DNA from: Prasinococcaceae sp. CCMP 1430
Taxonomy: Eukaryota > Prasinodermophyta > Palmophyllophyceae > Prasinococcales > Prasinococcaceae
Direction: 5' to 3'
Length of the DNA stretch: 61,278 bases
Assembly (NCBI GenBank): GCA_013416795.1
Contig: RQSC01000020.1
Coordinates: 142,535-203,812, forward strand
Part shown: piece by piece, positions 1,248-61,278 of the stretch
Layout: every line of letters begins with the position of its first letter
How positions within the stretch are numbered: position 1 is the stretch's first letter
Made by a program: the position numbers and the translations under genes
Notes under the pieces: model-generated
The model's input: the letters and a program-made list of their open reading frames with translations, nothing else
Databases searched by the model: none
What the model was told of the DNA's origin: nothing

Positions 1248-1835
1248 ATGGGCGTGCGGCTCATGCTGATGAGACACGCCAAGTCGTCGTGGGACGACCC
1301 CCAGCTGAAGGACAAGGACAGGCCGCTCAACGCTCGCGGCTTGCGCTCCGCCGAGAGGGTGGGCGCGATCCTCTGCCAAAACGAGGCCGCAGACTGGATC
1401 CCAGACGTGATATTGTGCTCCGATGCCGTGCGTGCACAGTCCACGCTGGAGCACATGGTGCTCGCAAACCCCGGGCTGAGGAGCGTGCCAACGTCCGTGT
1501 TCCCGGAGCTCTACTCGCGCTCGGGCTCGGGCGCGGACATCGTCGATGTGCTCCAGAAATTGCTGCCCAAGACGGCCGACAATGGCAATGGCACGGCACA
1601 TAGCAAGTGCGCCCTGTTGATTGGCCACAACCCTGGCTGGGAGGAGTCGGCGGCCTGGTTGTGCGGCGACGATGCGCTGCGGCTCAAGACCGCACACGCT
1701 GCGCTGCTGCAGTCCGATGCGGACGGCTGGGCGGATGCCCTCAACGGTGGGGCCGGCACGTGGGCGCTCGTGGGGATGCTCACGGTGAAAAGCAGAAAAA
1801 AGAAGACGCGAGCCGGAGTGGATTTTGAGGACTAG
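1248..1835 (+). CDS. SixA-like phosphohistidine phosphatase (histidine phosphatase superfamily)
   Basis: This is a 195-residue single-exon protein of the histidine phosphatase (phosphoglycerate mutase-like) superfamily, closest to the short SixA branch. The N-terminus MGVRLMLMRHAKSSWDD carries the catalytic RHxxS motif, with the phospho-accepting His in LMRHAKS. LNARGLRSAERVG, LCSDAVRAQSTLE and the second histidine motif LLIGHNPGWEE follow in the family order. In bacteria SixA dephosphorylates phosphohistidine on phosphotransfer proteins; the substrate here is unknown. The frame is open upstream to about 906, but without an ATG, so I start at the first in-frame ATG. The C-terminus is a short basic tail (KSRKKKTR). 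The gene is convergent with the chaperonin gene, 376 bp away. The family is certain; the substrate is not. Confidence 0.88.
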   Translation: MGVRLMLMRHAKSSWDDPQLKDKDRPLNARGLRSAERVGAILCQNEAADWIPDVILCSDAVRAQSTLEHMVLANPGLRSVPTSVFPELYSRSGSGADIVDVLQKLLPKTADNGNGTAHSKCALLIGHNPGWEESAAWLCGDDALRLKTAHAALLQSDADGWADALNGGAGTWALVGMLTVKSRKKKTRAGVDFED

Positions 1836-2211
1836 GCGCTCAAACAAGACCCGACGATCGCGAAGGCGGCGAGCATGCGTCGCACTCATGATGGTATGCG
1901 CACGCAAGCGCGTGCGCACAGCGGATTGGACGGTGCGGTGACGGTGCATGTGGGGGGTTGGTGGGTGTGATCGTGGGTGTGGTGGTGGTGGTGGGTGGGG
2001 ATCGGGAGGGCCGGCGCTGCCGAAAGGTGCGCAGTCAAATCGACCAAATCGCGGACGCTTTCGACACGAACAACGAGAGCACGTGCTTGCGCGAGTAAGG
2101 CACAGTCGTTCATACAGCACGCCCTCCATTCTATCGCCGAGACAAAAAAAAAATAACTTTGCACTGCGCCAAAACCTCGCTTACGAATTCGTGATAGATG
2201 TCCCAGCGCGC
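1836..2211. other. Convergent intergenic spacer, SixA-like / chaperonin
   Basis: This 376-bp spacer between two convergent stop codons contains a GTGGGT/GTGGTG-rich stretch at 1945-2000 and an A-rich patch (a run of nine A) near 2144-2156. The A-rich patch is a plausible 3'-end processing region. I see no gene in it. Confidence 0.5.
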
Positions 2212-4080
2212 TCATTGCGCGAGAGCGCAGCCCACGGCACGCCGGGCGAGGGCTGCCGCCAGCAGCACGCCGTCCGCACGCCAGCGCAGAACGTCGCCAA
2301 CGAGCGGCTTCGCCTCGCTGCGGCTTCCATCATGCGCCGTGCGCTCAGCGTCATCGTCCCACACGCCGAGTAGCGGCCCGAGACAGAGCAGCTCCGCAGC
2401 ATGGGGGTTGCAGCCGGCCGGGGAGTCGCTCGGCGCGCTCGCTCGCTTGCACCGCCAGTCGTCATGGGCCGTGCATCCGGCAGCGAGCGCGGCCAGCGCA
2501 TCCTCGGAAGTGCGCCCAGCGCGTACGAGGCACACGCGCACAAGCTCCTCGAAGCACGCTGCGAACGTGCGGTAGCACTCAGACCGGTAGCATGCGCCAT
2601 TGGCAGTCTCCACGTGGGCCATGTGCCTCAGCTCCGCCGCGAGTGCCATTTCCAGCGCGCCCGCGCCGGGTGCGATGCCACCCTCCCCGAGGGACGTGCG
2701 TGTGGCGGCGAGCGAGCGCGCTGCGCTCGCCGCCGCCTCGCGCGCCCCGAGCTCCGTCGGAGCGCACATGAGAAGCGTGGCGACCGACTCAGGATCGCCA
2801 ACGGTGGGCGGATCGCTTCCCTCGCCCTCGCCGCTGAAGCACTCCGCACGTCCCACCACGAGCACGCCGCACGCCTCGAGGTCCTCGCCGAGGCCTTGGA
2901 GGTGCCCTGCGCGGCGTGGCGCGACCAGCAGCGTCGCGCGCGCGCGCGCGCGCGACGCGCGCACGAGGCGAGGCGACGCGCTTGGGACCGCGCCGCACGC
3001 AGCGGCCGCAGCCTCCAGGTCGGCCATCGGCAATCCATCCACCAGCGTGATGCCCTCCGATGCACACGCACTGGTGACTCCCTCATGCGCCTTCCCGAGG
3101 CACAGCACCAGCCCCACGCCGAGCTTCACCATGCGCTCAACAAAGCGCTTGGCGAAGGCCTCTTCACGCGCGGCCGCCCCGCCCGCAGCCAGTTCGTCGG
3201 CAAGCTCAGACGCAGTCGACACCTCTCTCGCGCACGACGCGGCGCCAGATTCAGCTGCCTGGCCGAGCACCTCACAGGTGAGCACTGCCACACGGCAGCA
3301 CATCGACTGCTCGTCGTCCTCGTGCGCGCCCGCGATTATACGCGCGTCGCCGCTGGTACTCTGTGCGCGCACGAGCTGCAGCTGTCGGGCGTGCCTGAGG
3401 GGCACCGCCGCACCGGCGATCGCTGACGACGCCCGCCGCGGCCAGCCCGCAAGCGCAACGACGCGTGTGGCGTCAAGAACGTCCAACACAGCCTCGTGCG
3501 GGTCTCCCGTCCCGAGTGCAGCGCTCTCAGCGGCCGCGCACACGAGCGCAGCTGTGTGCGGGTCGCGACTTGCTGCGACGTAGTGCGCCGCAGCGCGTGC
3601 GTCGGCGAGCGCGCCGTGGCCGCGGTCGGATCCGAAGCCGCCTCGCTCTTCCGGAGATCCTAGCGGATCCTCCACCCGGAGGCTTGAGAGGGGCACAGCG
3701 AGTGCGAGCGTTGCATCTCTGCAGGCCTCTGCCGCGCGCTCGAGCGCGTCGAGCACCTCATCGAGTGGCACGCCGCCTCCATCGGCAAGCGTGGCTGCCG
3801 CGGCCGTCAGCGCGCCGGCGAGCGCGGCGACCCAGCCACCGCCACCACCACCGTGCGCACGCTCGAAGCACTCGCATCCCTCCGCAAGCTGTGTGGCCAC
3901 CGGATGCGCCGTGGCCTCCGCCACCGCTGCCACAGCGTCCATTGCCGACAGCGCCAGCTCAGAGTCGCCGTGCGCGAGCCGACCAGCTGCGTGCAGCGGG
4001 CCGAGCCGGCCGCGGGCGGCCGCGGCGGCCGCAGCGAGCGCCGCGCACGCAGCGCGGGCAGCGGCCGAGAGCTCGCACAT
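2212..4080 (-). CDS. Bardet-Biedl type group II chaperonin-like protein (BBS6/10/12-like)
   Basis: This 622-residue protein has the layout of a CCT/TCP-1 chaperonin. It has an equatorial start (RGRLGPLHAAGRLAHGD, equivalent to the LGPxGMDK/NDGAT region), an intermediate and apical part with VGLVLCLGKAHEGV and GITLVDGLPMADLEAAA, and the C-terminal equatorial signature GEGGIAPGAGALEMALA. The ATPase motif GDGTT that should follow the second helix is replaced by a run of glycines (ERAHGGGGGGW), and NDGAT is also degenerate. Loss of the catalytic motif is typical of the BBS chaperonins MKKS/BBS6, BBS10 and BBS12, which help assemble the BBSome for ciliary traffic. I cannot tell which of the three it is. 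Ala-rich insertions are common. It is divergent from the FPGS gene, 551 bp away. Confidence 0.72.
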   Translation of the reverse strand: MCELSAAARAACAALAAAAAAARGRLGPLHAAGRLAHGDSELALSAMDAVAAVAEATAHPVATQLAEGCECFERAHGGGGGGWVAALAGALTAAAATLADGGGVPLDEVLDALERAAEACRDATLALAVPLSSLRVEDPLGSPEERGGFGSDRGHGALADARAAAHYVAASRDPHTAALVCAAAESAALGTGDPHEAVLDVLDATRVVALAGWPRRASSAIAGAAVPLRHARQLQLVRAQSTSGDARIIAGAHEDDEQSMCCRVAVLTCEVLGQAAESGAASCAREVSTASELADELAAGGAAAREEAFAKRFVERMVKLGVGLVLCLGKAHEGVTSACASEGITLVDGLPMADLEAAAAACGAVPSASPRLVRASRARARATLLVAPRRAGHLQGLGEDLEACGVLVVGRAECFSGEGEGSDPPTVGDPESVATLLMCAPTELGAREAAASAARSLAATRTSLGEGGIAPGAGALEMALAAELRHMAHVETANGACYRSECYRTFAACFEELVRVCLVRAGRTSEDALAALAAGCTAHDDWRCKRASAPSDSPAGCNPHAAELLCLGPLLGVWDDDAERTAHDGSRSEAKPLVGDVLRWRADGVLLAAALARRAVGCALAQ

Positions 4081-4631: not shown

Positions 4632-6454
4632 ATGGCGGCGGCGGTGGCCGCCGACAAGGGCGCATCCGCGGCGGCCATTGCCGCGGACTATCCGCGAACG
4701 TACGACGGCACGCTCGCCGCGCTGAGCTCGCTCATCAGCGGGCGACGGCGCGGCTCGGGCATCGCGTGGGAGGAGACGTTCGGCATGATGGGGGTCTACC
4801 TCGAAACGCTCGGTATCGCCGACGATATCAAGGCGCTGCCAGTGGTGCATGTGGCCGGGACGAAGGTGCGCGCGTGCGTCCGCTCGCGCTCGGCCGCCGC
4901 TCGCGGCCGCCGCTACTCGCGCGTGCGCCCGCTGACCTCGCCCGGCCTGCCCCGCCCGGTGCGCCTCCCTGTGCGACCGCTGGCGATCTCCTTCCCGCCC
5001 GGATCCCTCTCTACCAGGGCAAGGGATCGACGTGCGTGCTCGCCGAGTCGATCCTGCGCTCGTCGGGCCGCCGCACGGCGCTCTTCACGTCGCCGCACCT
5101 CGTGGACGTTCGCGAGCGCATCCGCATCAATGGCAGGCTCATCTCTAAGGCCGAATGGACCAAGCGATTCTGGGAGGTCTGGGACAAGCTATGGGCCGCA
5201 GCGCAGTCGGCTGGCGCCGACGCGGGTGGTCCGCCGCTGATGCCCGCGTACTTCCGCTTCCTGACGCTGCTTGCGCTCTACGTATTCGTCAAGTCATCCG
5301 AGCCCTTCGACGCGGTCCTCCTTGAGGTCGGGCTTGGCGGGCGTCTGGACGCCACCAACGTAGTGAAACGTCCTGTGGTATGCGGCATCACGCACCTCGG
5401 GCTCGACCACGTCGAGCTGCTCGGCGACACGGTGGGCAAGATCGCGTACGAGAAGGCAGGGATAATGAAGCCAGGCGTGGACGTGGTGACCGCTGAGGGA
5501 CAGGAGGCCGAGGCGGATGAGGTGCTGCGCGCGCGCTCGGCCGACGTGGGCGCGCCGCTATCGGTTGCGCGACCGCTTCACTCGTATGCTGGCTGCGCAC
5601 CGCGCAGCATCGAGCTCGGGCTCGCGGGCGCGCACCAGCACGAGAACGCCGCCGTAGCAGTCGCGTTGTGCCGCAAGCTCGCGGCGCACGAGCGCAGCCA
5701 CGGGCCGGCGAGCAGCGAGGCGCGCGCCGCCGCTGAGGAGGCGGCGCTCGCGCGTGGCGAACTGCCCCACGCGTGGCGCACAGGGCTCGAGAGTGCGACC
5801 TGGCCAGGGCGAGCGCAGATTGTGCCGGACAGCGGATATGGTGGGCCGGAGGACGGCGACGACGATGCTGCCGAGAGTGACGACAGCGACGGCAGCGGCG
5901 ATGCGATCGACGAGCACCCACCGCCTACGAAGTCCGCGGCGCCAAACCTGACCTTCTACATGGATGGCGCGCACACGCCGGAAAGCATGGTGCTCTGCGC
6001 GGAGTGGTTTGCGAAGGCGCAGAGTCGCCAAGCGGCGCCAGGGCCGCGTGACGAGGTGGCGCTGCTGTTCAACATCATGGACGAGCGCTCGCCCGAGGAG
6101 CTGCTCGCGCCGCTTTCGGCCACGCTGGAGGCCAATGGCGTACGCGTGAGCCGCGCACTCTTCACGCCTCCGAACTCCTCGTACAAGAGCGTGTCATCAG
6201 CCTCGCCCGCGGTGGCGGACAACCTCGAGCGCTCCCTCGTGTGGCAGGAGCGCCTACGGAGCACGTGGGACGGCCTGCCGCGCCGGCAGCCTAACCAGGG
6301 GAGCAGCGCGGTGGTGCCCTCGCTGCGCGACACGCTCGCGGCGCTGCGCGCGCGCGCGGCCGAGGTGCGCCCCGCCAAGGTGCGCGTGCTCGTCACGGGC
6401 TCGCTCTACATCATCGGCGACCTGCTGAAGATGCTGAGGCGGCCGCCGCGATGA
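4632..6454 (+). CDS. FPGS: Folylpolyglutamate synthase (Mur ligase family)
   Basis: The enzyme adds glutamates to reduced folates, retaining them in the cell. There are two exons, 4632-4865 and 5018-6454, joined in phase 0 across a 152-bp intron (GTGCGC...ACCAG). Splicing restores the P-loop as VAGTKGKGSTC, which is what fixes the junction. The 556-residue product then shows FTSPHLVDVRERIRINGR, LLEVGLGGRLDATN and THLGLDHVELLGDTVGKIA, the standard FPGS/FolC landmarks, followed by a C-terminal Mur ligase domain with FYMDGAHTPESM and LFNIMDERS. An acidic insert (around GGPEDGDDDAAESDDSD) interrupts the C-terminal domain. A strong transit peptide is not obvious. It is the only gene here followed by a neighbour on the same strand. 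Confidence 0.95.
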
Positions 6455-7051: not shown

Positions 7052-8695
7052 ATGTCTTCCTTGAAGGTTCCAATTGCGGTTACTATTCCTGACCAAGCAA
7101 GTGGGGCGCTCCCGCCCATTGTGCCTGCGTCGGAGGGCGATGAGGTCAACGTCGCCCCGCAAGGGCATCGGCCGCCCTCTTCCGTGGACACAACGCCGCT
7201 CACAGGTCTCAGAGGACTGGCCGCCATCCACATCATGGTGAGTCACTACCTCCTCTTTACGACAACTAAGCACGACCTCCTGGGAGGCGCCTCAATGCCG
7301 CTCTTTTACCTCATGTCGGGTCTGATCATGACGCTCGGCTACGGAAAGGATCTCTCGCGCCGCCCTTATCCAGGGGAGCCCGACCCTTCCCCGCTCGCGC
7401 TCGGGCCTTTCCTTCGCAAGCGTATCGCTCGCCTGTACCCGGTGTACATGCTCGTCAACTGTGCCGAGCTGGTGATCTACTCGCTGGGCATCGGCCCCAA
7501 CCTCGCGCTCAAGTGGCCTGCTGCCCTTGCCAACTTCGTCCTTACCGCGTTTGGACTGAACATGTGGCTCCTCCCCTTCACGTGGGTCTTTCCCTTTCCC
7601 ATCACGCTGCCCACAGCAGGTGTCACGTGGACCGTGCAGACCATGTTCTTCTTTTACGTGTGCTTTCCGCGCGTGCTCGCCTGGCTTCGCGAGCGCCGTG
7701 AGCGCGGCACTTGGGTGGAGGGTCTGTACCACGCGCAGTGGGTGGCATTTATCTTCATTCTCATCCTCGTGACGATCAAGACCCAGGATCTGGGTGATGT
7801 GGGGGCATGGGTCGCGTACTTCTCGGCGCGTGGGTGGCCACCATCCCGCCTGCTTGTCTTCGTCATGGGATGCGCGGTGGGCGCCGACCTCATGCACGCC
7901 GAGTCCGAGGGCTGGTCCGTGCGCTCGTGCTTTTGCGGCGTCTGCTATCCGCTCACGGCGCTCGTCGACGTGCAGCAGCCCGCGACGCCGAAGACTTGGG
8001 GCAAGCGTGCGACTGTCGCGGGCGCCGCGTATGCCGTCGCGGTGGTGCTTCTCTCCTTCGCGCCGAATTCGTCCGTCACTCGCCTCGCCACCGAAGCGCT
8101 CGGCCCTCTTCTTTTCATCCACATCATGGTGTGCCTGTGCCGCAGCGGGGGCGTCGGCACGCTGGCGCGTCTCTGCAACTCTCGCGCCATGCAGCTGATG
8201 GGAGAAGTTTCCATGAGCGTGTACATGCTGCACTTGACGGTGCTGCTTGTCCTTGGGGCCGCCGTGAAGGGCTACAGTGCTCACGACTGGGCGGGCAAGC
8301 GCATCGAGGGCATTCAGTGGGCGGACAGTGAGTGGACGTATCCCGACAAACACCACTGCCGTGATCTTTGGAAGGATGACCCGGCCCTGCAAGTGGCACT
8401 TGGCAAGGGCTCCGATGCGGAGGTCGACATGGAGCAATGGCGCAACGCCACGGGCGCGTGCGAGCAAGTCTTTGACGACGACTACCAAAGCAAGCTTGCC
8501 CCTGCTTGGCTCATCCCCGTTTGCCTGCTCGTGTCACTGCTCTTGGGATTCCTCGTGACACGTTTCTATGAACAGCCTGTCGCCCGGCTGATGCGCCCGG
8601 GGCGGGCCGTCACGAGCGTGAAGGGCGAGAGCAAGGGCGTCCTCCAGGAGACCTCGCCGAAGGACCTCACGGCCGTGCCAGACGTCGAAGCCTGA
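7052..8695 (+). CDS. Acyltransferase-3 family integral membrane protein (OafA/NRF-6-like)
   Basis: This 547-residue single-exon protein has multiple transmembrane segments and belongs to the acyltransferase-3 family, which moves acyl groups onto sugars, lipids or other extracytoplasmic acceptors. The diagnostic N-terminal segment is TGLRGLAAIHIMVSHY, with the conserved Arg and His, followed by SMPLFYLMSGLIMTLGYG and the cytoplasmic FLRKRIARLYPVYML. Further hydrophobic helices follow (WVAFIFILILVTIKT, AVAVVLLSFAP, MSVYMLHLTVLLVLGAAV and a last one near LIPVCLLVSLLLGFLVT). The final FYEQPVARLMR is typical of the family's C-terminal end. A lumenal insert of about 65 residues precedes the last helix. 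The acceptor cannot be predicted. Confidence 0.88.
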   Translation: MSSLKVPIAVTIPDQASGALPPIVPASEGDEVNVAPQGHRPPSSVDTTPLTGLRGLAAIHIMVSHYLLFTTTKHDLLGGASMPLFYLMSGLIMTLGYGKDLSRRPYPGEPDPSPLALGPFLRKRIARLYPVYMLVNCAELVIYSLGIGPNLALKWPAALANFVLTAFGLNMWLLPFTWVFPFPITLPTAGVTWTVQTMFFFYVCFPRVLAWLRERRERGTWVEGLYHAQWVAFIFILILVTIKTQDLGDVGAWVAYFSARGWPPSRLLVFVMGCAVGADLMHAESEGWSVRSCFCGVCYPLTALVDVQQPATPKTWGKRATVAGAAYAVAVVLLSFAPNSSVTRLATEALGPLLFIHIMVCLCRSGGVGTLARLCNSRAMQLMGEVSMSVYMLHLTVLLVLGAAVKGYSAHDWAGKRIEGIQWADSEWTYPDKHHCRDLWKDDPALQVALGKGSDAEVDMEQWRNATGACEQVFDDDYQSKLAPAWLIPVCLLVSLLLGFLVTRFYEQPVARLMRPGRAVTSVKGESKGVLQETSPKDLTAVPDVEA

Positions 8696-8910: not shown

Positions 8911-11900
8911 TCACGCGGCGTGCGCGAGGTCAAAGAGCATGACGTTCTGCTCTGCCATCGCCGTACGCAGCTCGCGTCCGGCGCCCGCGAGCTCCTCGGC
9001 CAACGCTTCGCGCGCAGCGCGCACAGGCGGCGCAGAGCAGCCCTCCCCGCCGTGGTTGAGCAGCGCCGCAAAGACGGCGCTCGCCCAGGCTGGCAGCGCA
9101 CCTGCGTCGCATGCCGGCCTCAGCATCGAGCTGGTCACATCAACGTCAGGCGCAGCGTCGAACGCAGAGGTCTCAAGCTTCACGCCTGCGTCAACGCCCT
9201 GTAGCATGCGATGCACCACGTCAACTATCGACATGGCGTCCAGCGAGAGCGCCGCTGCCGCCGAGGTCGGTGCCTCGGGACACTTAGGCGCGCCCATGTC
9301 ACCGGCACACGCTGCCAGCGCGTCGCGCACCGCCGCGTCTGCCTCCCCACTCAGCGCGCCCAGCTCAAGCGAGCGCTCCCATGATCCGACCGACACTCCA
9401 ATGTCGGACCAGGGCCCAACCTCGGCGGGCGTCCAGTCTGTCGCCCCTACCTCGGCCGACAGCAGGCCGAGCACGTCCGGCGCGAGGCCGCAGTGCGCGA
9501 ACCCTGCCGAGTGGACTGCCGCCATACCGTCGAGTAACCGCAGGGCGTAGAAAGCAGCCAGCGGCGACGGCATAGTGCCGCCAGCCACCGAGTACGCTCG
9601 CAGGGCGCACGCAAGCGAGAAACCTCTGCCACTTTCGTCCATGGCACTGCCACCAGATGCCTGCGCGAGAGGCACGCGGCTGATGCTCGCGTCGCTGAAG
9701 CAATAGCACATGCCCGCAGCGGGCACGAATCCCCTGGGAGCGCAACAGCGTGCGGTCGACAGCTGCGCATTAATCGCGCTGGTGACGCAGTGAGCCCACG
9801 CGCCGTGCACCCACGTGCCCGTGTGTACCTCCAGTGTGCACTGCTCGTCATCGTTCCCAAGACCCATGGCAGCGAGAGTCACGTCGTCCGTCGCGAATGC
9901 AGAGAATACGCGCGCGCCGCTGGTGCGGCTCGCACGCAGTGCGGCAGTCAGGATGTACGTGTCATCACCGAGTGTCAACGGTTCGACCGACGCAGAGTCG
10001 CTGCCAGCTTCGCACGCGGTCAGCACGTGCGTCCCATCGAAGCTCTGACCAGCACAGACGAGCGATGCCAACCCAGGCGCCGAGTCGGGCCGCGCACCCA
10101 GCAGCGCGGAGCGTGCCTCGATGCCCCAAGGATTGCTCGCGCTGGCGCTCCCATCGCTCGAGGGCAAGCACGCACGCAGCTTTCCGAGACCGGCATGGCC
10201 GCAGGTCGCTCCTACGCCGCCATCTTCGAGCGCATCGGCTTCCGCGGGTGCTTCGGCCGTGCTGGCAATGTCCTTGAACACATGCGTCACCGAGAAGGGC
10301 TCGGCGCCCTCATTCACGGCATCGTCCTCGTTCTCACACTGAGGGGCGGCAGCCACCACGTCGTGAGCCGCGCTCTCGACCGGTCGCGGAGAGTCTTCGA
10401 AAACAGCCAGATTTTCGGCCGCATCTACAGCGTTCTCATCACCCTCGAGCGTAGCACCTGACGGGAAGTTCTGCGCGGGCGCGTCCGCGTCCGCCGGAGG
10501 CGGCGCGTTCTCTGCGTCGTCGTTCTCGACGGCGGCCAGCGGGGCACGCGGCGGCGCGGGTCCTGCACTATCGCCGCCCGGCGCATCCCCGAAAACCTCG
10601 AAAAGAGGATTCATGCTGATGCGAGAGGGTTTTGTGTTCGCCCTTGGGATCGCAGGAGACTCGGGTGTGAGCTCACCCATCGCGTCATTGGCGTCTTTTT
10701 CAAGGTCCTTGCCTGCGCAGAGGTCTTCAAAAACATCAAGTGGTGCGTCGTGACCACTGGGGGCACCATCCGCACCTCCCTTGTGGCCCTGGGGACACTC
10801 GTCCTCGAACACGTCTACGGAGAATGATTTAGGGTCGCCGAACGTATCGTCATCGGCGTCAGCATTTCTTGACGGCGCATCTTCGTAAACAGCCACCGCA
10901 TCGCCTTCGCCGACGGTAACAGATGAAGCAACGGGCGCCGCAGGCGCAGTGTTGGTCCCCCCTCCGTTGTCGCATCGCATGGTGCCCTGGCACGGCAGAT
11001 CCTCCTTGAACATCGACATGATGTCATCCATGGCCTCCTGCGTGTTGATGGTCATGTCATCCGCCTGTCCGCGCTGCATGGCCTGGCGAAAGTTCAGCGT
11101 CGGCGACGGAGGCTGAAAGATTTGGAAGCCGTCGCTGGTGTCGTCCTCTTCCTCAACAGCGTCGTCATTGGCACGGCCGCCTTCCATGTGCTCCTTCACA
11201 GCCGACAGGGGAGGCGCGACACTCGCCGCCGCGCCCGGCAGCTGTGCGTCGGGTGCACGCGAAGCATCCTGCGCGGGCGCCGCGGGCGGCTTGGCATTCT
11301 CGTCGTCCTCGAACACATCGAGCGGTTGGACTGCGCGGGCATCGTGCGTGGGCGCGGCGTTCTCGTCGTCCACGTAGACCTGAAGGGGTTCGCCCCCTGC
11401 ATCCAGCGGCGCAGCACCAGACGTGTGCGCGGCGTTTTGATCCTCTTCGAAGACCGCAATATCCTCGGCGAGGGGCTCCGGGCGCTGGGCGGGTGCCGTG
11501 GCGGCGACAGGCGAGTCGTCCTCGTCCATCTCCATCTCAACGTCGCTGCCGCTGCTCTCTTGCTCCCGCTCCTGCTCACACATAGCCTCGCGCTCGCGTG
11601 CGGCGCGCGCGCGCCACATTGCCACGCGGCGCTCCTCAAAGCTAACCTCGTTCCCGTCGGCGCCCACAAGCGCCGCTGGGTCGAACGCAGTCAGCGCACC
11701 GGCGTCGGTCCGGTAGACGCGGACGCGGCGCTTCGGTGCAAACATCCTGGCGACTCCCACGGGTGCCGATGCCGTTCGCTCCGCGGCAGCGGCAGCGGCC
11801 GCGACCTCGTTGGTGCGGGCCTCGGCCGCGTCCCTGGCCTTGCACGCGTCGAGGCACCTGCTGGTAGAAGTTGCGTTCTTCTCGTCGGGCTTTGCCTTGC

Positions 11901-45689: not shown

Positions 45690-45707
45690 GCCAGCGGGAC
45701 AAAAGGA

Positions 45708-50415: not shown

Positions 50416-51538
50416 TCAGAGCTCCGACGCCGGCGTCGGCTTGGGCACGTAGATACCCTCCGTGGCCTTCCAATTCGAGTCGACCGAGTGCCCGCGCGAA
50501 CCCACCACCTCGAGTTGGCCTGAAATAGGCCGGCCGAAGCGGCGGCTGGTCATGGAGAGGTACGCATTCGTGGCCACGTGCTGAATGTGCACCTTGCTCT
50601 CCTGCTTCCACTTCGAGTTGGGGTCCATCACGAGGCGCCATACGTCGTTGGCGTCGCTGCGGAGGCGCATTCGCGCGACGAGCCGGCGTGTTGGTTGGCG
50701 AACGGTGCGCGAGCGAGTCAGAGCGCGCGCTCCCGCTGCAGGATCTGCAACGATGGCGCAAACACGCATCGAGGTGCAGGTGGGCGAGAGCGGGCGGCCG
50801 CGGAGGTCGCGCGCACCTGTTGTCGTGGTCGCCGTGACAGCTGACCTCCTGCTGGTTTGAGAGCGGGCTCTGGAAGTTGTGGGAGTGAAGCCACTTCTTG
50901 CTCGAGGCGTGCATGAGGCGGAACTCGCTGTTGTGCGTGAGCGGCTCGCCACTCTCGATGGAACTGCGCGCATCGGCGAGAGCGCGCGGGCGCCGATGGG
51001 TGCGTTGCGGTGGGGCGGGGCGTCGGGTTTGCGGATTAGGTGAGGCGTTGCGTAGGGGAGCAGGACGACAGAGCGCAAAAGCGGGGCCGGAAACGGGGGC
51101 AAGTGGGTGGGTGGGTGGGCGGGTCAGCGAGGCAGCATGCGCCGCGCGGTTGCGCTGCGCAGCCACCACCACAGGGGCAGCGCAGCGAGCACCGGCCCTC
51201 GTGAGCCGCGGATCAGCTGTTCAACACGTCCGCGACCAAAGTGCAGATTGGCGCGCGTCGGCCGCCGCTCACCTCCCCTCGACGGGCTTGATCATCCAGA
51301 GGTCCTCCTCGTCGCCTTCGTTGGCCGTGCCTGTCACGCTCTGCTGGCCGCTACCCGACCCGTACGAGATCTCGTGCGAGTGCAGGTTGAAGGCGTGCTG
51401 CGTGGAGGCGAGCTTGACGGCCGAGCCGTAGGTGACCAGGTGCCTTTCGAGCGCCGCGGCGGGCGAGGCCGCGGCGGCCACGAGCAGCGCCGCGACGGCC
51501 CCTGCAGCTGCCACTGCCCGCGCCGCCAGTCCCGCCAT
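50416..51538 (-). CDS. SDF2: SDF2-like secreted MIR-domain protein (ER)
   Basis: The three exons 51273-51538, 50817-50963 and 50416-50656 (minus strand), with both junctions in phase 2 (GTGAGC...CGCAG and GTGCGC...CGCAG), give 217 residues, the family's usual size. MAGLAARAVAAAGAVAALLV and an Ala-rich run form the signal peptide. Three MIR motifs follow: VTYGSAVKLASTQHAFNLHS; HNSEFRLMHASSKKWLHSHN; KVHIQHVATNAYLSMTS. Junctions rebuild KPVEGSSIESGEPL and CHGDHDNSDANDVWRLVMD. SDF2 works with ERdj3/BiP in ER quality control. No C-terminal HDEL is seen (it ends TPASEL). It is convergent with the beta-helix gene, 150 bp away. Confidence 0.93.
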
Positions 51539-51949: not shown

Positions 51950-53887
51950 ATGGTTCGCTCGCTGGGCGGGAGGCTCGCGCTGCTGCTCGCGGCGGCCGCG
52001 GCCGCGCTCGCCGCGTACACGGCCGCGCCGCACCGCAGCGCGCGCGCCGGCGCAGCGAGGCGCGCTGCCAGCCTCGAGTGGGACGTGGTCGTGGTCGGGG
52101 GCGGCTCGGCGGGGGCGGTCGTGGCGTCAAGGCTCAGCGCCGACCCCAGCCTGCGCGTGCTGCTGCTGGAGGCCGGCGGCGAGCTCGAGCCCAACTGGAT
52201 GACCAGGGTGCCGCTGGTGAGCGCTTTGCTGCAGCACTCCCGCATCGACTGGGCGTTTGACACGGTGCCGCAGGAGCACAGCTCTCGCGGCCTCAAACGG
52301 AATGTGTCGCAGTGGCCGCGCGGCAAGGTGCTGGGAGGGTCGAGCGTGCTGAACTACATGGCGTGGGTGCGCGGAGCGCGCGAGGACTACGAGCGTTGGC
52401 GCGACGAGTTCGGCGCCGAGGGGTGGGGATATGAGGACGTGCTGCCCTTCTTCAGGCGCGCCGAGCGGTGCTACTTTGGGCAGGGCGCGAGCTCTGCTGA
52501 GCGGGAGTTGTCGCCGCTGCGCGGTGCGGACGGCGCGCTGGCGATACGAATGGAGCAGCCGACGCTGCGGGAGGCGTCCAAGCGCTTTCTGCGCGCTTGC
52601 GCGGCCGACGAGCGCATCGGCGCGGTGGACGACTACAACGGCGAGACGATGCTCGGCTCGGGCCACACGCAGTGCAACATCGACGAGGGTGGGCGCCGGC
52701 AGGACACTGCCAGGACGTACCTCCGCAGGGAGCTACGACGAGGGAGGCCCAACCTGCACGTGGTGACGCGAGCGCACGCGGCGCGCGTCGTCTTTGGGAG
52801 GGAAAGCGGCACGGGCGAGCCGGTTGCGAAGGGTGTCGAGTTCATTGCGGATGCGCTCGGCCCCGAGGCGCCGCTTATGGCGCCCCTCGCCGCGGGCGGT
52901 GAGGTCGTGCTGTCGTCCGGCGCCGTCGGCACGCCGCTCATCCTGCAGCGCTCGGGCGTCGGCCCTGCCGATCTGCTCAAGAGCACCGGCATCGATGTCG
53001 TCGTCGCGAACGACAACGTTGGGGCTAACCTGCAGGACCACATCTTCACGCCGCTCGCGGCGGACACAAACGCACTCTCCCTCCACGCCGGAATGATCAA
53101 CCCCGCGACGATCAGCGACTACCTGTCCGAGGGCTCGGGCCCACTGGCGTCCGATTTCATCGAGGTGACCGCCTTCCTGAGCACCGGGGCGCGCCCCGAT
53201 TTGCACGGCGCGCCCGACATCCAGCTCCACTTCGTGCCTGCCCGTGGAGACACGGTGTATTGCAAGGCAATGGGTTTCGGAGAGGAGTGGTGCGACGCCA
53301 TGTGGCGCGCCCAGATGGGGGGCGTGGACTCTTACAACATGCTGCCCACGCTGCTGCACCCGCTGTCCACTGGCCACGTCAACGTGAGCTCCGCCGACCC
53401 TCTCGCACCGCCGCGCATCGACCCCAACTACCTGTCGGACGAGCACGGCACTGACGTGCGCACGCTGAGGGAAGGGCTTAGGATCGTGACTGGGCTCATC
53501 GCAAGCGAGCACTTCCGGGACATCAACGTGGGCCTCACAATGCCGTTCAATTACCCGCAAGCGTTTCGTGAAGAGGTTGGGCTGCCACTGCGCCCCGGCG
53601 ATGAGCCGACATGGCTTCTGCCGAACGCGACAGACGAGGCTTTCTGGGAGGCGTACATCCGCCAGGTTGCGCTCACGGTGTACCACCCGACGAGCACGTG
53701 CGCGATTGGCGCCGCGAATGGCAGCTCGTGCGCGCTGCCGGACATGAGCGTGCGTGGGGTGCGCGGCGTACGCGTGGCCGACGCCAGCGCGATGCCGGCA
53801 ATCACCTCGGGAAATACCAACGCACCGTGCATCATGCTCGGTGAGCGCGCAGCGGAGCTCGTCGCCGCGGCGCTGCGCGCACGGTGA
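51950..53887 (+). CDS. GMC family FAD-dependent oxidoreductase (choline dehydrogenase-like)
   Basis: This 645-residue single-exon flavoprotein starts at an in-frame ATG after an open leader. A hydrophobic N-terminus (LGGRLALLLAAAAAALAAYT) is a signal peptide or anchor. The FAD-binding core is DVVVVGGGSAGAVVASRLSA, then LRVLLLEAGGE. WPRGKVLGGSSVLNYMAWVR is GMC signature 1 and GGEVVLSSGAVGTPLILQRS signature 2. The C-terminal catalytic segment YHPTSTCAIG contains the active-site His, followed by VADASAMPAITSGNTNAPCI. Enzymes of this family oxidise alcohols or choline; fatty-acid photodecarboxylase is a related algal branch, but no feature here singles it out. It is convergent with the TMEM65 gene, 159 bp away. 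Confidence 0.94.
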   Translation: MVRSLGGRLALLLAAAAAALAAYTAAPHRSARAGAARRAASLEWDVVVVGGGSAGAVVASRLSADPSLRVLLLEAGGELEPNWMTRVPLVSALLQHSRIDWAFDTVPQEHSSRGLKRNVSQWPRGKVLGGSSVLNYMAWVRGAREDYERWRDEFGAEGWGYEDVLPFFRRAERCYFGQGASSAERELSPLRGADGALAIRMEQPTLREASKRFLRACAADERIGAVDDYNGETMLGSGHTQCNIDEGGRRQDTARTYLRRELRRGRPNLHVVTRAHAARVVFGRESGTGEPVAKGVEFIADALGPEAPLMAPLAAGGEVVLSSGAVGTPLILQRSGVGPADLLKSTGIDVVVANDNVGANLQDHIFTPLAADTNALSLHAGMINPATISDYLSEGSGPLASDFIEVTAFLSTGARPDLHGAPDIQLHFVPARGDTVYCKAMGFGEEWCDAMWRAQMGGVDSYNMLPTLLHPLSTGHVNVSSADPLAPPRIDPNYLSDEHGTDVRTLREGLRIVTGLIASEHFRDINVGLTMPFNYPQAFREEVGLPLRPGDEPTWLLPNATDEAFWEAYIRQVALTVYHPTSTCAIGAANGSSCALPDMSVRGVRGVRVADASAMPAITSGNTNAPCIMLGERAAELVAAALRAR

Positions 53888-54046
53888 AGCGGCATTCGCG
53901 ACTGTGGCGGCTTCTAGCTAGAGTATAGCTGCGATGTGGGATTTCAAGGTGGAATATCATACAATAGAGATTGCGCGCTGTCGACCGCACGACACGGGTC
54001 CGGCGCGAGCCACGTCTAGCGCCACCGCTGTGCTCGGCGCACGACT

Positions 54047-54304
54047 TCAGCGGAAGCCCGGCACCACCAGCGGCGTCATGCCTAGCACGCACCCGACCAT
54101 CACCCCCGCGGCGCAGCCAAAGGCCTTCGCCTTATTTGCTTGTGCGCTCTCCATCATCTGGGGGGAGATCGGCGGCAGGTGGATGCCGAGCTTTGAGGCG
54201 CCGCGCTCGATGTACTTGGCCTGTTGTGACGTGCGCGCGTGTGCGGCGCAGAACACAGGGTACGGGTCAGGTTGGGTCAATGTTTGGGCGTGCGTGCGCG
54301 TGTA

Positions 54305-54342
<38 letters not shown>

Positions 54343-55187
54343 GGGTATGAGCTGGCGAGCGCGGGGTGCATCACCACGCGCGTTGTGGCGCAGTGATTTT
54401 TTTTGGGGGGGGGGTGATGAGGGGGGAGGGGTATGAGCTGGCGAGCGCGGGGTGCATCACCACGCGCGTTGTGGCGCAGTGCGTTGCCCAGTGCCAACAG
54501 CCGCGCCGCGCGGCGGCGCACCAGCGAGATGCCTAAGACGTCCGAAACCAAGTTGCCCATGGCCGCGGCCCCCATCGTGCTAAGACCCATCGCGACGCCA
54601 AGATGACTCTCGATGATGTCGCCGCTCATGATCATGATCATGTTGTCGCAAAATCCGAAGCCCACGAACGGCACGCTGCTCACGAACGCCAGCGCGCGCA
54701 TCTCGTCCCAGGTGAGGTCGCGCAGGCATGGCTTGCGGCCCCTTACGTTGCCGATACCGTGCGCCGCGTTCCACTCGTCGCGGTCGATCACGCCGTCCTC
54801 GTTTGCGTCGTGCGCCGCGTTCCACTCGTCGCGGTCGATCACGCCGTCCTCGTTTGCGTCAATGGTGTCGAAGTCGCCACTCGCAAACGTCGTGCGGATG
54901 GGCGACGCGGCGCGCAGCCGAGCGCGCAGAGCGTCCGCGGAGCCTCCATCGAGCGCGCGCACGAGCGCGTCAACGTCCTCCGGCGTGCGCACCCGCCTTG
55001 CGAGCTCCCTCATCGCCCTCTGCCCCTCAGAATCCCTCCCCCCCTCCGCGCCCGTCGCGTACCCCCCCGCAAGCCACCCGTGCCGCCCGCCCGCTCCGCC
55101 AGCGGCGGCTGCGCCCGCGCCCCGCCCGCAGCCCGCTCGGTGAGCCCTATCAAACAAAACGCATGCAATCCCCACGCCCGTCGGCAT
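54047..55187 (-). CDS. TMEM65 homologue fused to N-terminal EF-hands
   Basis: The exons are 54522-55187 and 54047-54220 (minus strand), joined in phase 0 across a 301-bp intron (GTGCGC...AACAG), giving 279 residues. The C-terminal half is the TMEM65 domain: FVSSVPFVGFGFCDNMIMIM, GVAMGLSTMGAAAMGNLVSD, VLGISLAKYIERGASKLGIH and GCAAGVMVGCVLGMTPLVV. TMEM65 is a mitochondrial inner-membrane protein linked to Na+/Ca2+ exchange in animals. Before it lies a canonical EF-hand loop, DANEDGVIDRDE, present twice in tandem as a perfect 51-bp repeat. The first ATG (55187) gives an Ala/Gly-rich, Arg-containing leader; a later Met (MRELARRV) is an alternative start. The second EF loop lacks its own entering helix. 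Confidence 0.88.
54305..54341 (+). repeat. Poly-G tract (37 G) in the TMEM65 intron
   Basis: An uninterrupted run of 37 G (poly-C on the coding strand) lies in the intron of the EF-hand/TMEM65 gene. Its length is likely to be unreliable in the assembly. Confidence 0.95.
54345..54481. repeat. Perfect 51-bp direct repeat (54345-54395 and 54431-54481)
   Basis: The two 51-bp copies are identical and are separated by a 35-bp T/G-rich spacer beside the poly-G tract. Both lie in the intron of the EF-hand/TMEM65 gene, close to its donor site. This is a recent duplication or an assembly artefact around the homopolymer. Confidence 0.9.
54759..54860 (-). repeat. Perfect 51-bp tandem repeat encoding two EF-hand loops
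   Basis: Units 54759-54809 and 54810-54860 are identical at every base and encode the 17-residue unit DANEDGVIDRDEWNAAH twice, in frame. Identity at synonymous sites points to a very recent duplication. Confidence 0.95.
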
Positions 55188-56989: not shown

Positions 56990-59017
56990 ATGGACAGCTC
57001 TGCCGCGCCGGCGGCGCGGCTGGCGCAGTCGTCGGTGGTGATGGACGACCTGCTGTCCGGTCTGAACGAGTGGCGCAACATTCAGGATGTGGTTCGCCTG
57101 ACGGTGCGCGTAGGCGTGGGCGCTCGCGCGCCGGGCACGCACGAAAAGGAAGCTCGCAAGCCGGCGCACGCTGACGCGCGCATGGCCTCATCCAATCCCA
57201 CACACAACCCCATCCCTGCGCGCGCTCCCCACTCGCCCGACTCGGCGTGTGCGTGCGGGCGCGGCGCGCGATACAGTTCAAAGCATTTTATGACGTGCTG
57301 CGCGCGCAGGGCGACACCATCCGGTCCCTTGAGGCGCAGCTCGAGGACAAGGCCAGCCACGCGCAGGTGACGCGCATCGCGGAGGCGCTGGGTGCGCCTG
57401 GCACACTGCGCGCGACGCTCGCGGAGCTCGGGGGCGCGCTCGCCGACAAGGTAGACGCGGCCGAGCTACGTAGCGCGCTCGCGCGGCGCGTGACTCGCGC
57501 CGATCTGGAGGCTGCAATCGAGGGGCGGCCCCGCCTCGCCGAGGTGCAGCACGCGCTCGATATGAAGGCAACCACAGAGGACGTCGACGCGCTCGCCGCG
57601 CGCGTGGTCCAGCTCGGCGCGGAGCTCGAGGCCAAGGCCGACGCGCGAGAAACCGAGCGCGCGCTTAGCACCAAGGCCGAGGCATCGGAGCTGCGCGGGG
57701 CGATTGCGGATGCGACCAGCGCCGCTGACATGGCCGTGCGCATGGAGGGCATGGTGCCTCGAGAGCATCTAGCGGGCGCCATGGCGGAGAAGGTCGACAG
57801 GGCGGACCTCGAGATGACCGTGTCGTCTCTCCGCGACGAAATCTTGCAGCTCGAGCACACGAAGCTGCGCGCGGGTCGGGAGGAGACCGCCGCGCTGCGC
57901 GCCGAGGTGAAGCGCCAGGGCGCCGAAATTTGCGCGCTGCGCGACGAGCAGCGAAGGATGGCAGAGCGCGCCCGCGAAGACACCGACACCGCCGCCTCCG
58001 CGCTGCGCGCCTTCAACGCAAATTTCGATGGGGCCCTGGCCGACATGCGTCGGCAGCTTGCGACCGTCGAGGAGGCCGCCGCCAGCGGCGGAGGTCGCGC
58101 AGGCGCTGAAGCACTAATGGACGCGCTTGACGAGAAAGTCGATCGCGAGGAGATGCGTCACTGGCTTGAGCTCAAGTCGGACGTCGCGCAAGTCAACGAG
58201 GCGCTGGCACAGAAGGCGAACATCTCGGCCGTCAACGAGGCCCTCGAGCGCGCTGAGAGCTCGCGCGCAGCGAGTGGCGCGACCGCCAATAGTCAGCTGG
58301 CGGACAAGGCAAACCTCAGCGACGTGTGCGCGCTGCTCGACGCCAAGGCGGGCATCGACGACGTCAACCGCGTGCTGTCCGAGGTCAACTCAGAGCTCGA
58401 GGCGCGCGCGACGGTGGACGACCTGCGGCGGACCGTCCAAGACCTTTGCTCGGAGGCTGCGGTGGCCAGGTGGATATGGAAGACCGGGAAGACCAAGGCC
58501 GGCAACGCCGTGCCATGGAACGTGCAGAGCGTCAACACGGACCCCTCCAACTTCCTGTGGGAACGCGACAAGGCCACTGTGGTCGCGGTGGCGCCGGGGC
58601 TCTACGAGGTCACCTTCGGATTCTTCACGCGACGGAAGCCCTCTGTGCGGCTGCTGGTGAATGGCGAGCCTGTGTTGGCGGCTGTCAACAGCGCGAGCTA
58701 TGTCGTGCACCATTCGAGTGGGCGGCTTACCAACGGTGCGTCAGACAGATTGCGCGCGCACGAGTGTGCGTGGGCGTGTACCCTGGGAAAAGCTCAGCGC
58801 TACAAGCGACTGTCCGTGATGCTGACCCTGCACCTGCCGGTATAAACCCACGCCGCCCCAACCCGCGCCCCCGCTTGCAGTCGGGCGGCACCCCGCTGGG
58901 AACGTCACAGGCCTCACCCTCATTGACTTTCTCGCGCTGCCGGCCAAGGCGAGGGTGGCAATCACGTATGCGGGCGAGGAGGGGGGCGAGGGATTCCTTA
59001 GCCTCAAGAAGCTCTGA
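56990..59017 (+). CDS. Long coiled-coil protein with C-terminal C1q-like domain
   Basis: The three exons 56990-57103, 57277-58735 and 58881-59017 (GTGCGC...ATACAG; GTGCGT...TGCAG; phases 0 and 1) give 569 residues. The first junction gives WRNIQDVVRLTFKAFYDVLR. About 390 residues of repeated coiled coil follow, with a recurring pattern L..KA....VN.AL..K (ALAQKANISAVNEALE; ALLDAKAGIDDVNRVLSEV). The last ~130 residues form a compact, very conserved-looking domain: WIWKTGKTKAGNAVPWNVQS, GLYEVTFGFFTRRKPSVRLL, NSASYVVHHSSGRLTN and, after the last junction, TGLTLIDFLALPAKARVAIT. This resembles C1q/TNF-like jelly-roll domains. I infer a ciliary or cytoskeletal role from similar protist proteins; no function is known. 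Confidence 0.78.
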
Positions 59018-59379
59018 CCAAGCTAGGATCCAGCGCCGGCCTTCCAAGCCGTCAGCTTGGTCACCGCGCGCCGCCTGCCATGCATGTGTTGCAGCCCAGT
59101 AAGCGAGGACCTTCCGCATGCGCACGTCGACGCGCGGTGGCAAAATCGAACGAGTCTCTTATCCGCGGCGCGCCCAGCGCGCGCGCAAAGCCCACCCTGC
59201 CACGCGCCCGCTGCCGAAGTGAGGTGCGCGCACGGGGCTGCGCACATGCACAGTCACATATGCGCAGCGATCGCCGTGCCATCGCGACGTCGACTCCGTG
59301 TGCCTGAGATGTACCTCAGGAGTCCAGCGCCGCCGCCGCCTCCTTCTTGGGCGCGAGGGGTCTCGTCCGGCGCCTTTTG
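59018..59379. other. Convergent spacer, coiled-coil/C1q / zinc-finger protein
   Basis: 362 bp between two stop codons. No gene or repeat recognised; it is less AT-rich than the other convergent spacers. Confidence 0.4.
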
Positions 59380-61278
59380 TTACGGCCGCACGGGCTTCTC
59401 CAAAACGGCTGCAAGGCTTGTGTTGCCGGTGGAGAGTGTGGAACCTCGGCGCCCCTCGAGCATTTGAATGAGGCTTTGTGGGAGCTGCGAGCTGAAGGAC
59501 CCACGCGTCATCCCTTTGCCCACGCAGGCATCATCGAGGGGAGTGAGCTCCGTGGACAGCTCGGCTGCGGCGTGCAGCGCGCCGATCTGACTGATGTGAG
59601 CGGCGTGTGCTGCGGCCATGTTCATGGCCGCACCGTTGGCAAGCACGGAGGGCAGAGGCGCGGTCGCCGTGGTGGCGGGTTGAGCCCCCGCGGCGGTCGA
59701 GCCGTTGGCGGTGGCCAACGCAGGCATCTGCATGAGGTTGGGGTACAGCAATGGGTTGAGGCCTAGCGGCGGTTGCACGGCCACCATGGGGGGCGCTGCG
59801 GTCGCCGTTGCCGCCTTGCTGGCATCCCCGTTGGTATCTGCCGGCAAAGCCGCGCCGGGCGCGCCTGGAGCCGTCTGCCCCGCCGCCGCACCATTCCCCC
59901 CTTGCCCCGCAGCGTACTGCTGCAGAGAGCCTGCGCTGCCCACGCCGCCTACGCCCCTCACGCCCCCCACGCCCGCAGGGCTCAGAGCCCCCATCGGGCC
60001 ACCTGTGCTGGCAATTGCCGCGACGTTGGAAGCGCTGAGTGGCGCGCTCGCGCCCAGGTTGTTGAGCTCGCCCGACTTGAGCAGGTCAGAGATGGTGCGG
60101 TCGGGGTCGCATGCGGCCAGCTGCGTGAGCACCTGCATGACAGCGTCCTGTGCCGCTTTCGATGCGACGCTCGCGATGGTCGATTGGATGGAGGTGTGCA
60201 GATTGTCTGCCGCGCCGGACAGCGAGGGCGCGGCGCGGTCCTGTTGTTGCATGGCCGCCAGGGCCGCGCGCGGCGAGGCCATGTCGGCGCCCGCCGCGGC
60301 CGCTTGCGTCTGCGCGGTCGTCGGCGGCGGGGCGGTGGGAATTGGCGCCGTGAAGGAGCCGCGCCGACTCTTGTTGGGGAGCGGCGGCGCGTCCGGGTCG
60401 GCCGTCGGCGCCGTGGGTGACGGGACCGAGATGCCCGGATGGTGGGACCCGACCGTCGCTACCGGTACCGCGAGCGTCAGCGCGCCACCCGCCTGCGCGT
60501 ACGCGGCCGGCTTGCGTTTGCGCGGCGCGGAGGGGCGCGGGGCGCCGCCGCCCGCGGCGTCCTTCCGTGGCCGCTTCGCCGAGCCCGTCGCCGCGGCTCC
60601 CCCCGCCTTCCCACCCGGGACGGGGGGGAACGAGCCCCGGGCGCCCGCGCCGCCCGCCTTGGCCGCCTGCCACGCGGGCGCCTTGCCACCAGCACTGCTC
60701 ACCGCCTGGAGCGCCGCTCCACCGCCGGCGCCGCCCGACGCGCCCGCCTTGCCGCCGTTGGCCTTCGCCCGTGCCGCCGCCGCCTGCGCCGTGCTGTGCC
60801 GCTTCTTTCTCTGCACGCCCGTGTGGCACGTCACCGGCCCGTTCGAGCACCAGCACGCGTTCGAGCAGCGCGGGCACAGCGCCGGGTCGATGGTGCAGCC
60901 CGTGAGCTTGTAGCGGCCGGCGCAGTCGAACGTGTGGTAGCGGCACTGGCACAGCGGGCACTTGGCCGCCTTGTTCGGATCGGTGAACGACGCGCTGCAC
61001 TTGTGGCACGCGCCCTTGAAGACGTCGGGCGCACCCTCGCCGCCGAGCGCGGCCGTCTTCTTCTTGCCGCCCTTGGCCTGCACGGGCGACGGCGGCTGGG
61101 CAGCCGCGCCACCCTTGGCCTTGCTGCCGCCCTTGGAGCCCTGCGCCACCGCGTCCGGTGGTCTGACCCCTACGAGTACCGCCGCTGCCGTCGCGGCGGC
61201 CGCCGCCGCGCCCTTGCCCCCGTCGGCGTCGCTGTCGCCAGCCGCGGCCTGCAGCGGCGCACTCGCCTGCACCGACTG
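59380..61278 (-). CDS. Cys-rich zinc-finger protein with Ala/Pro-rich disordered tail (5' end off the window)
   Basis: The frame runs from the stop at 59380 to the right edge, with no ATG near the edge, so the N-terminus is probably outside. At about 60825-61005 there is a compact Cys cluster: CHKCSASFTD, AAKCPLCQCRYHTFDC, GCTIDPALCPRCSNACWCS and VTCHTG. This is like the 4CXXC/R1 zinc finger of CDCA7-type proteins or a RING/PHD variant. A basic KR patch (QRKKRHS, KRPRKDA, PRKRKPA) suggests a nuclear protein. The remainder is Ala/Gly/Pro-rich with one helical stretch (IQSTIASVASKAAQDAVMQV), ending SLAAVLEKPVRP. A chromatin or transcription role is a guess. Confidence 0.65.
   Translation of the reverse strand, partial: QSVQASAPLQAAAGDSDADGGKGAAAAAATAAAVLVGVRPPDAVAQGSKGGSKAKGGAAAQPPSPVQAKGGKKKTAALGGEGAPDVFKGACHKCSASFTDPNKAAKCPLCQCRYHTFDCAGRYKLTGCTIDPALCPRCSNACWCSNGPVTCHTGVQRKKRHSTAQAAAARAKANGGKAGASGGAGGGAALQAVSSAGGKAPAWQAAKAGGAGARGSFPPVPGGKAGGAAATGSAKRPRKDAAGGGAPRPSAPRKRKPAAYAQAGGALTLAVPVATVGSHHPGISVPSPTAPTADPDAPPLPNKSRRGSFTAPIPTAPPPTTAQTQAAAAGADMASPRAALAAMQQQDRAAPSLSGAADNLHTSIQSTIASVASKAAQDAVMQVLTQLAACDPDRTISDLLKSGELNNLGASAPLSASNVAAIASTGGPMGALSPAGVGGVRGVGGVGSAGSLQQYAAGQGGNGAAAGQTAPGAPGAALPADTNGDASKAATATAAPPMVAVQPPLGLNPLLYPNLMQMPALATANGSTAAGAQPATTATAPLPSVLANGAAMNMAAAHAAHISQIGALHAAAELSTELTPLDDACVGKGMTRGSFSSQLPQSLIQMLEGRRGSTLSTGNTSLAAVLEKPVRP

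Follow-up and report, generated by a model that had tools for sequence, protein, structure and literature searches.

In a 61,278-nucleotide stretch of the Prasinococcaceae sp. CCMP 1430 genome (contig RQSC01000020.1, positions 142,535 to 203,812 of assembly GCA_013416795.1; hereafter the window), nearly all neighboring genes lie on opposite strands; in the rest of the genome, opposite orientation is favored without being obligatory. A two-strand hidden Markov model (HMM) of genes with start, stop, GT-AG introns, and a codon-position-dependent fifth-order base model was self-trained and decoded on the window plus stretches of the same genome; predicted genes of less than 60 amino acids were dropped, and orientation counts from the HMM's own lists skipped any pair separated by more than 50 N. 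The window, with a G+C content of 68%, holds 27 genes, and 25 of the 26 adjacent pairs are on opposite strands, the sole same-strand pair being formed by the folylpolyglutamate synthase gene FPGS (4632-6454) and an acyltransferase gene (7235-8695). A first-pass annotation of this DNA had arrived at the same number of genes, the same 25 of 26 pairs, and the same exception; the independently rebuilt gene list agrees with it, and the observation of opposite-strand neighbors in the window is confirmed. Its chance estimate of 4e-7 is correct against a 50% null; at switching rates of 0.66 to 0.79, a range spanning the rates measured in this genome, the probability of at least 25 of 26 opposite pairs is 0.0003 to 0.017. 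The HMM's own list has a 28th entry, a doubtful minus-strand open reading frame (ORF) at 55319-55693 in a CA-repeat stretch; with the pair across a 725-N gap omitted, this list gives 24 of 26 opposite pairs. Twelve parameter settings yielded 24/25 (three settings), 24/26 (six), and 24/28 (three, with introns switched off). The gene model has 90 introns in all.

Strand switching across the genome

The genome comprises 24.5 Mb in 145 contigs. Twenty-five stretches of 10 kb (L009 to L033) were drawn by a seeded shuffle of 963 bins from the 26 contigs known from kinase matches, a sample that is non-uniform over the 145 contigs; 23 stretches were usable, L022 and L029 consisting entirely of N. Of the letters fetched for the sample, 23% were N (57,781/250,000), representing either assembly gaps or withheld letters. 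The 75 scored pairs divide into 31 convergent, 21 divergent, and 23 tandem ones, i.e., 52 (69%) are on opposite strands (p = 0.0005 versus one half; 95% confidence interval, 0.58 to 0.79). Scatter among the sampled loci, each with at most six pairs, did not exceed that of a single rate (permutation p = 0.68), and parameter changes moved the opposite fraction between 0.59 and 0.70.

A second test worked without a gene caller: 470 genes were placed by matches of eleven Pfam families, with same-strand matches of one family counted as a single gene when they lay within 1.5 kb of each other. For several families, a subset of the candidates was scored (e.g., 19 of 108 for AAA and 150 of 529 for WD40), so that the lists hold only some of the family members. 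Among pairs of different families less than 3 kb apart, 23 of 29 were on opposite strands (binomial p = 0.0012), and 26 of 34 when same-family pairs were included. One pair kept in the 29 (C134, WD40 and RING on the same strand) lies within one 663-residue open frame and is probably a single gene; the close same-family pairs C36 and C73 are likewise located inside single frames. At larger distances, the opposite pairs numbered 10/21 (3 to 4.5 kb), 5/12 (4.5 to 6 kb), and 11/19 (6 to 8 kb). The opposite-strand excess is clearest at nearest-neighbor range.

Strict alternation does not hold genome-wide, as the 52 of 75 pairs and the tandem neighbors with differing Pfam families attest. Such neighbors are a permease and UbiA in L009, tubulin and a WD40 protein in L031, and two pairs in L023; longer tandem runs occur in L010 (DUF547-glutaredoxin, aldolase, and MutS) and L030 (aminotransferase, U-box, and SYF2). 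Two tandem pairs are probably single split genes, namely the BUB1 N-terminus and kinase in L013 and a 66-residue piece beside a V-ATPase subunit in L023, and the kinesin in L014 is perhaps a third; because split-gene pairs were kept as same-strand, they lower the alternation rate. Long same-strand runs of the dinoflagellate or kinetoplastid type were found neither in the window nor in the sample. Near-perfect alternation as the basic organization of the genome is not supported, whereas switching above 50% is (52/75 in the sample; 23/29 in the Pfam-only test below 3 kb). Since the genome holds about 400 stretches of this size and the window was noted for being striking, it is best read as the upper tail of a genome-wide bias.

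Spacer lengths and promoter-associated signals

The 13 convergent spacers of the window measure 86 to 395 bp (median, 188 bp) and the divergent ones 377 to 2,305 bp, omitting a 30-bp value that stems from an N gap. The number of convergent spacers stands as given in the first-pass annotation, whereas the lengths differ from its 68 to 376 bp (median, 150 bp) for convergent and 269 bp to more than 2 kb for divergent spacers. Over window and sample, with genes of less than 100 amino acids, spacers with any N, and the kinase-centered loci left out, median lengths were 244 bp for convergent (n = 41), 595 bp for tandem (n = 21), and 818 bp for divergent spacers (n = 24), with most convergent 3' ends 100 to 450 bp apart. 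Were every gene end to require space of its own, averaging the convergent and divergent lengths should reproduce the tandem length; the difference (C+D)/2-T was -87 bp (95% interval, -379 to 108 bp). Within this wide interval, divergent spacers look like two 5' regions placed back to back and not like one promoter used twice, for which a length close to or below the tandem one would be expected. In 17 of the 24 divergent spacers, one of them an N-gap artifact, the distance is below 1 kb, measured between the ends of coding sequences and not between start sites.

For the spacer counts of A/T runs and of the hexamer GCCACA, genes of less than 60 amino acids and N-bearing spacers were dropped and the kinase-centered loci kept. 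A/T runs of at least 6 nucleotides, which are rare in this G+C-rich genome, were present in 14 of the 29 divergent spacers, as against 7 of 30 for tandem and 5 of 48 for convergent ones; the corresponding densities were 1.30, 0.47, and 0.33 runs per kb. Because these tracts concentrate in divergent spacers, shared open chromatin there is plausible; judged from sequence, they would fit one nucleosome-poor island with two promoters. GCCACA, the top 6-mer scanned, occurred within 250 bp upstream of start codons in 25 of 88 regions of the window and the fetched loci, compared to 6.2 expected from block shuffles. Its sense orientation prevailed by 21 to 7 at 50 to 200 bp from the ATG, and each of the three spacer classes contained it at a higher density than coding sequence did; it is a candidate core promoter element. 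In the 29 divergent spacers, the hexamer pointed outward to both genes in 6, to one in 6, and to neither in 17, counts that do not decide between one promoter and two. TGTAA, a poly(A) signal of green algae, was commonest near stops, with 10 of 25 sense occurrences in the 1 kb downstream of stops falling within the first 50 bp. Shared bidirectional promoters and interdigitated 3' ends had been proposed as the basic organization of this genome. Supported parts of this proposal are switching above 50% and the tight spacing of convergent ends (median, 244 bp); near-perfect alternation is not supported, and one promoter per divergent pair, which may still occur, gains no support from the 818-bp median.

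Gene support and controls of the gene caller

Twenty-one of the 27 window genes are supported by Pfam matches above the curated cut-off or by clear homologs. Genes 9, 19, and 23 have Pfam matches below the cut-off only, and genes 14, 21, and 27 have none; an NCBIfam scan of ten frames was helpful for one. Both members are homology-supported in 15 neighboring pairs (one crossing the N gap, one crossing the doubtful ORF), of which 14 are on opposite strands. Two boundaries, the end of gene 5 at 13677 and the start of gene 8 at 18228, were taken from an alternative HMM run, for gene 8 because a later run carried it into the N gap. The genes and one fragment are as follows (coordinates, strand, description, and support).

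1248..1835, +, gene 1, histidine phosphatase family (HMM; PF00300, 5e-7)
2212..4080, -, gene 2, TCP-1/cpn60-like chaperonin (HMM; PF00118, 2e-19)
4632..6454, +, gene 3, folylpolyglutamate synthase, FPGS (HMM; FPGS homologs; no Pfam match at 0.01)
7235..8695, +, gene 4, acyltransferase 3, same strand as gene 3 (HMM; PF01757, 2e-16)
8911..13677, -, gene 5, Mad3/BUB1-like, one open frame, ending at 12906 in one HMM run (PF08311, 4e-36)
15212..15778, +, gene 6, ribosomal protein S7e (PF01251, 2e-76)
15967..16653, -, gene 7, guanylate kinase (PF00625, 3e-39)
18228..19805, +, gene 8, purple-acid-phosphatase-like, separated from gene 7 by the 725-N stretch (PF00149, PF14008)
19894..20567, -, gene 9, weak NDUFA12-like match below cut-off (HMM; PF05071, 0.0009)
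21357..23376, +, gene 10, Nse4 (PF08743, 8e-19)
23621..24275, -, gene 11, prefoldin subunit (PF01920, 3e-8)
25126..25935, +, gene 12, methyltransferase (PF08241, 7e-14)
26038..27231, -, gene 13, SET domain (PF00856, 8e-7)
27847..30475, +, gene 14, no family found (HMM only; no Pfam or NCBIfam match)
30562..31113, -, gene 15, HscB co-chaperone, ORF reaching 31875 (PF07743, 3e-14)
31966..33074, +, gene 16, LysM protein (PF01476, 1e-14)
33207..33830, -, gene 17, BUD31 (PF01125, 3e-49)
34528..37491, +, gene 18, NOP14 (PF04147, 4e-169; PRCOL_00006390)
37807..38709, -, gene 19, DUF218-like, below cut-off (HMM; PF02698, 0.001)
39087..43129, +, gene 20, beta-galactosidase family GH2, three exons (PF02836, 1e-85; last exon PF02929, 1e-12)
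43525..44979, -, gene 21, no family found (HMM only; no Pfam or NCBIfam match)
46237..50265, +, gene 22, TIG domain and beta-helix matches (PF01833, 1e-15; PF13229)
50416..51538, -, gene 23, weak PAS-like match below cut-off, frame wider than exons (HMM; PF21815, 0.003; two exons without match)
51950..53887, +, gene 24, GMC oxidoreductase (PF00732, 1e-41)
54047..55013, -, gene 25, TMEM65 with EF hand, two exons (PF10507, 5e-22; second exon 3e-10)
56990..59017, +, gene 26, conserved protein of unknown function (69 homologs at E <= 1e-5, e.g., 40 to 42% identity over 88% of the query)
59380..61278, -, gene 27, no family found, continuing past the window edge (HMM only; no match)
45531..45677, +, M13 peptidase C-terminal fragment in the divergent spacer between genes 21 and 22 (PF01431)

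The splice signals learned from the model's own calls have the donor consensus GTGCG(T/C)G and the acceptor GCAG, and the later exons of genes 20 and 25 bear the expected Pfam continuation.

Missed genes had been named in the first-pass annotation as something that could overturn the alternation. The gaps between the window genes contain 143 N-free stop-to-stop ORFs of at least 45 residues, of which a single one scored as coding (45513-45686, plus strand), and a Pfam search of all 143 matched two families, Peptidase M13 and TT_ORF1. The TT_ORF1 match (E = 0.001) is weak and was taken as chance. Judged by coding score and Pfam, hidden genes that break the alternation were thus rejected save for the M13 fragment, which, as anticipated in that annotation, lies on the plus strand beside gene 22 and adds one same-strand neighbor if it is a gene. 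This 49-residue C-terminal piece is the sole Peptidase_M13 match found genome-wide and may be a relic or a lone transferred fragment. Neither ARAGORN nor Rfam at gathering scores found RNA genes in the window. As a control of the gene caller, each gene with its half-spacers was randomly flipped and the HMM rerun in eight trials; the mean opposite fraction was 0.513 in truth and 0.509 as called. Creation of the alternation by the caller was rejected on this basis; note that truly fused tandem pairs would stay fused in this control.

Fused frames, paralogs, and a related genome

Some open frames unite unrelated domains. An unusual union of unrelated enzymes is encoded by a 730-residue frame of L017 (1349-3538, plus strand), in which Rrp42-like RNase PH domains precede an inositol 1,3,4-trisphosphate 5/6-kinase domain. 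ThiF is joined with TatD in one frame of L027 (2-4678, plus strand; the locus has 3,085 N), and in L015 (4969-7269, plus strand) a cupin shares its frame with a weak match to glycosyltransferase 8. Fusion of genes may be a frequent event here. Two Mad3/BUB1 genes were found, one beside a kinase domain (L013, 4434-7431, minus strand) and one, gene 5 of the window (8911-13677, minus strand), long and without a kinase match, which suggests separate BUB1 and Mad3/BUBR1 paralogs.

The NOP14 protein encoded by gene 18 shares 96% identity across its entire length with the EukProt entry PRCOL_00006390, whose prefix we take to denote Prasinoderma coloniale. This species is a member of the Prasinodermophyta. 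According to the text of its genome paper, the genome has 25.3 Mb and a G+C content of 69.8%, its annotation counts 7,139 genes, 6,996 of them backed by transcripts, and a transcriptome exists (PMC7455551); the words strand, orientation, and intergenic are absent from the main text of that paper.

Origin of the opposite-strand bias

The explanation that we favor, at somewhat better than even confidence, is a genome-wide bias toward opposite-strand neighbors in a compact genome, shaped by selection against tandem read-through, with the window in its upper tail. In a gene-dense genome, a promoter that follows the 3' end of another gene by a few hundred bases would be disturbed by read-through from that gene, and selection would disfavor such a placement. 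As a result, start sites would gather in divergent promoter islands, each with one open-chromatin region in which the two core promoters are largely separate, whereas 3' ends would gather in short convergent spacers that need little space for termination. In favor of this explanation are the sampled 69%, the Pfam-only excess below 3 kb that fades at 3 to 6 kb, the neutral outcome of the flip control, the lack of excess scatter among loci, the near-additive spacer medians, and the A/T runs of divergent spacers. The step from the spacer and sequence facts to selection against tandem read-through is one that we infer. Several results weigh against the favored explanation. The additive test of spacer lengths is loose, its interval being nearly 500 bp wide, and 6 of the 21 tandem spacers are shorter than 350 bp, which fits poorly with strong selection against close tandem pairs. 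In the small kinase-centered loci, which are short and contain cut genes, only 5 of 10 pairs were on opposite strands. With introns forbidden, and only in those settings, the opposite fraction of the sample fell to 0.59 to 0.63. Finally, the Pfam-only test gave 18 of 26 opposite pairs at 8 to 12 kb, a small bin, at a distance where a short-range bias predicts no excess.

Other origins of the pattern appear less probable. It might be a neutral by-product of rearrangement and compaction, e.g., by fusion of same-strand neighbors, without selection on orientation. The frames uniting unrelated domain families in L017, L015, and L027 speak for this possibility, as does a KYU-HAAO fusion described in the text of the P. 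coloniale genome paper (PMC7455551). We nevertheless consider it unlikely, as the few fusions that came to notice would fall short of the approximately 29 tandem pairs that are missing from an even split in 75, and random single-gene inversions should, by reasoning, equilibrate at 50%. Quite unlikely is the proposal that near-strict alternation is the basic genome organization, with one shared bidirectional promoter per divergent pair. The 25 of 26 pairs in the window, the concentration of A/T tracts in divergent spacers, and the predominance of divergent spacers below 1 kb (17/24, including the N-gap artifact) are in its favor, whereas the sample reaches only 52 of 75 and contains runs of tandem genes that differ in Pfam family, and divergent spacers are about as long as two 5' regions.

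The window might instead be a local block under special constraint, stricter than the rest of the genome. The low probability of at least 25 of 26 opposite pairs at rates of 0.66 to 0.79 argues for such a block, but the window was chosen as striking from about 400 stretches of its size in 24.5 Mb, its genes belong to many different families, and the sampled loci show no excess scatter; we hold this to be very unlikely. We give hardly any credence to a gene-calling artifact in which missed or fused tandem genes produce the alternation. Such an artifact could draw on the three window genes without a homolog and the three with weak matches only, on the M13 fragment at 45531-45677 that would add a same-strand neighbor, and on the fact that fused calls are invisible to the flip control. 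Against it stand the unbiased outcome of that control, the lack of a coding signal or Pfam match in gap ORFs other than the M13 fragment and one chance-level match, the 14 of 15 fully homology-supported window pairs that alternate, and the independence of the Pfam-only test from any gene caller.

Comparison with other genomes

A tendency of neighbors to lie on opposite strands has been reported for Ectocarpus, a member of an unrelated lineage; according to the text of that report, 61.7% of the genes flanking spacers adjacent to transcription start sites are in divergent pairs, nucleosome-depleted regions are common to divergent partners when spacers are shorter than about 600 bp, transcript levels of partners are uncorrelated, and median spacers are 409 for divergent and 2293 for tandem pairs (PMC7784034). 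In the present genome, more than half of the neighbors are on opposite strands, as measured in the sample and not over the whole genome. The corresponding value 2D/(2D+T) is 42/65 (65%), provided that the 61.7% refer to genes whose upstream neighbor is divergent. In Ectocarpus, for which shared chromatin is documented, spacers of divergent pairs are by far the shorter ones; here the order of the divergent and tandem medians is reversed (818 versus 595 bp), another point at which length lends no support to promoter sharing. The present genome is of the same broad kind as the Ectocarpus organization, working partly alike, by convergence.

In a survey of 64 eukaryotes, co-directional pairs were near 50% in most genomes, with less random gene direction in Monosiga, Cyanidioschyzon, Thalassiosira, and Cryptococcus (PMC2871058). 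The present genome resembles these four in departing from 50%; the extent and sign of that departure are given in the supplement of the survey, whose main text does not mention Ostreococcus. Going by titles and abstract openings of the papers listed, nothing further on the orientation of nuclear genes in green algae was noticed. In compact yeast genomes, as the text of one study describes, convergent spacers are the shortest and promoter-containing spacers are longer, and divergent spacers form two length classes, the short one approximating a unidirectional promoter region (PMC3128071). Convergent spacers are the shortest here too, and their being shorter than promoter-containing ones is ordinary in compact genomes (PMC3128071); the two length classes of divergent spacers are described for the yeasts, and our own set comprises 24. 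The unidirectional blocks of dinoflagellates and kinetoplastids (described in the text of PMC8110479) likewise represent a strong genome-wide order of gene direction, but of opposite sign, as neighbors share a strand.

The opposite-strand bias is thus real but milder than first thought, and Ectocarpus, a brown alga, is a published precedent for it. Its value lies in providing a second, unrelated alga with an opposite-strand excess but with a spacer pattern that differs from that of Ectocarpus. Because promoter sharing and avoidance of tandem read-through predict different lengths of divergent spacers, the contrast between the two lets one ask which of them is the cause, and with a small genome and an existing transcriptome, as stated in the text of PMC7455551, this question could be settled cheaply. 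A bolder version, which we regard as quite improbable, holds that tandem adjacency was actively purged at the base of green plants, same-strand neighbors being inverted or fused. If true, promoter islands and shared 3' ends would be strung together along the chromosomes, and divergent spacers would be long because they hold two promoters, an organization reached independently of the brown algae.

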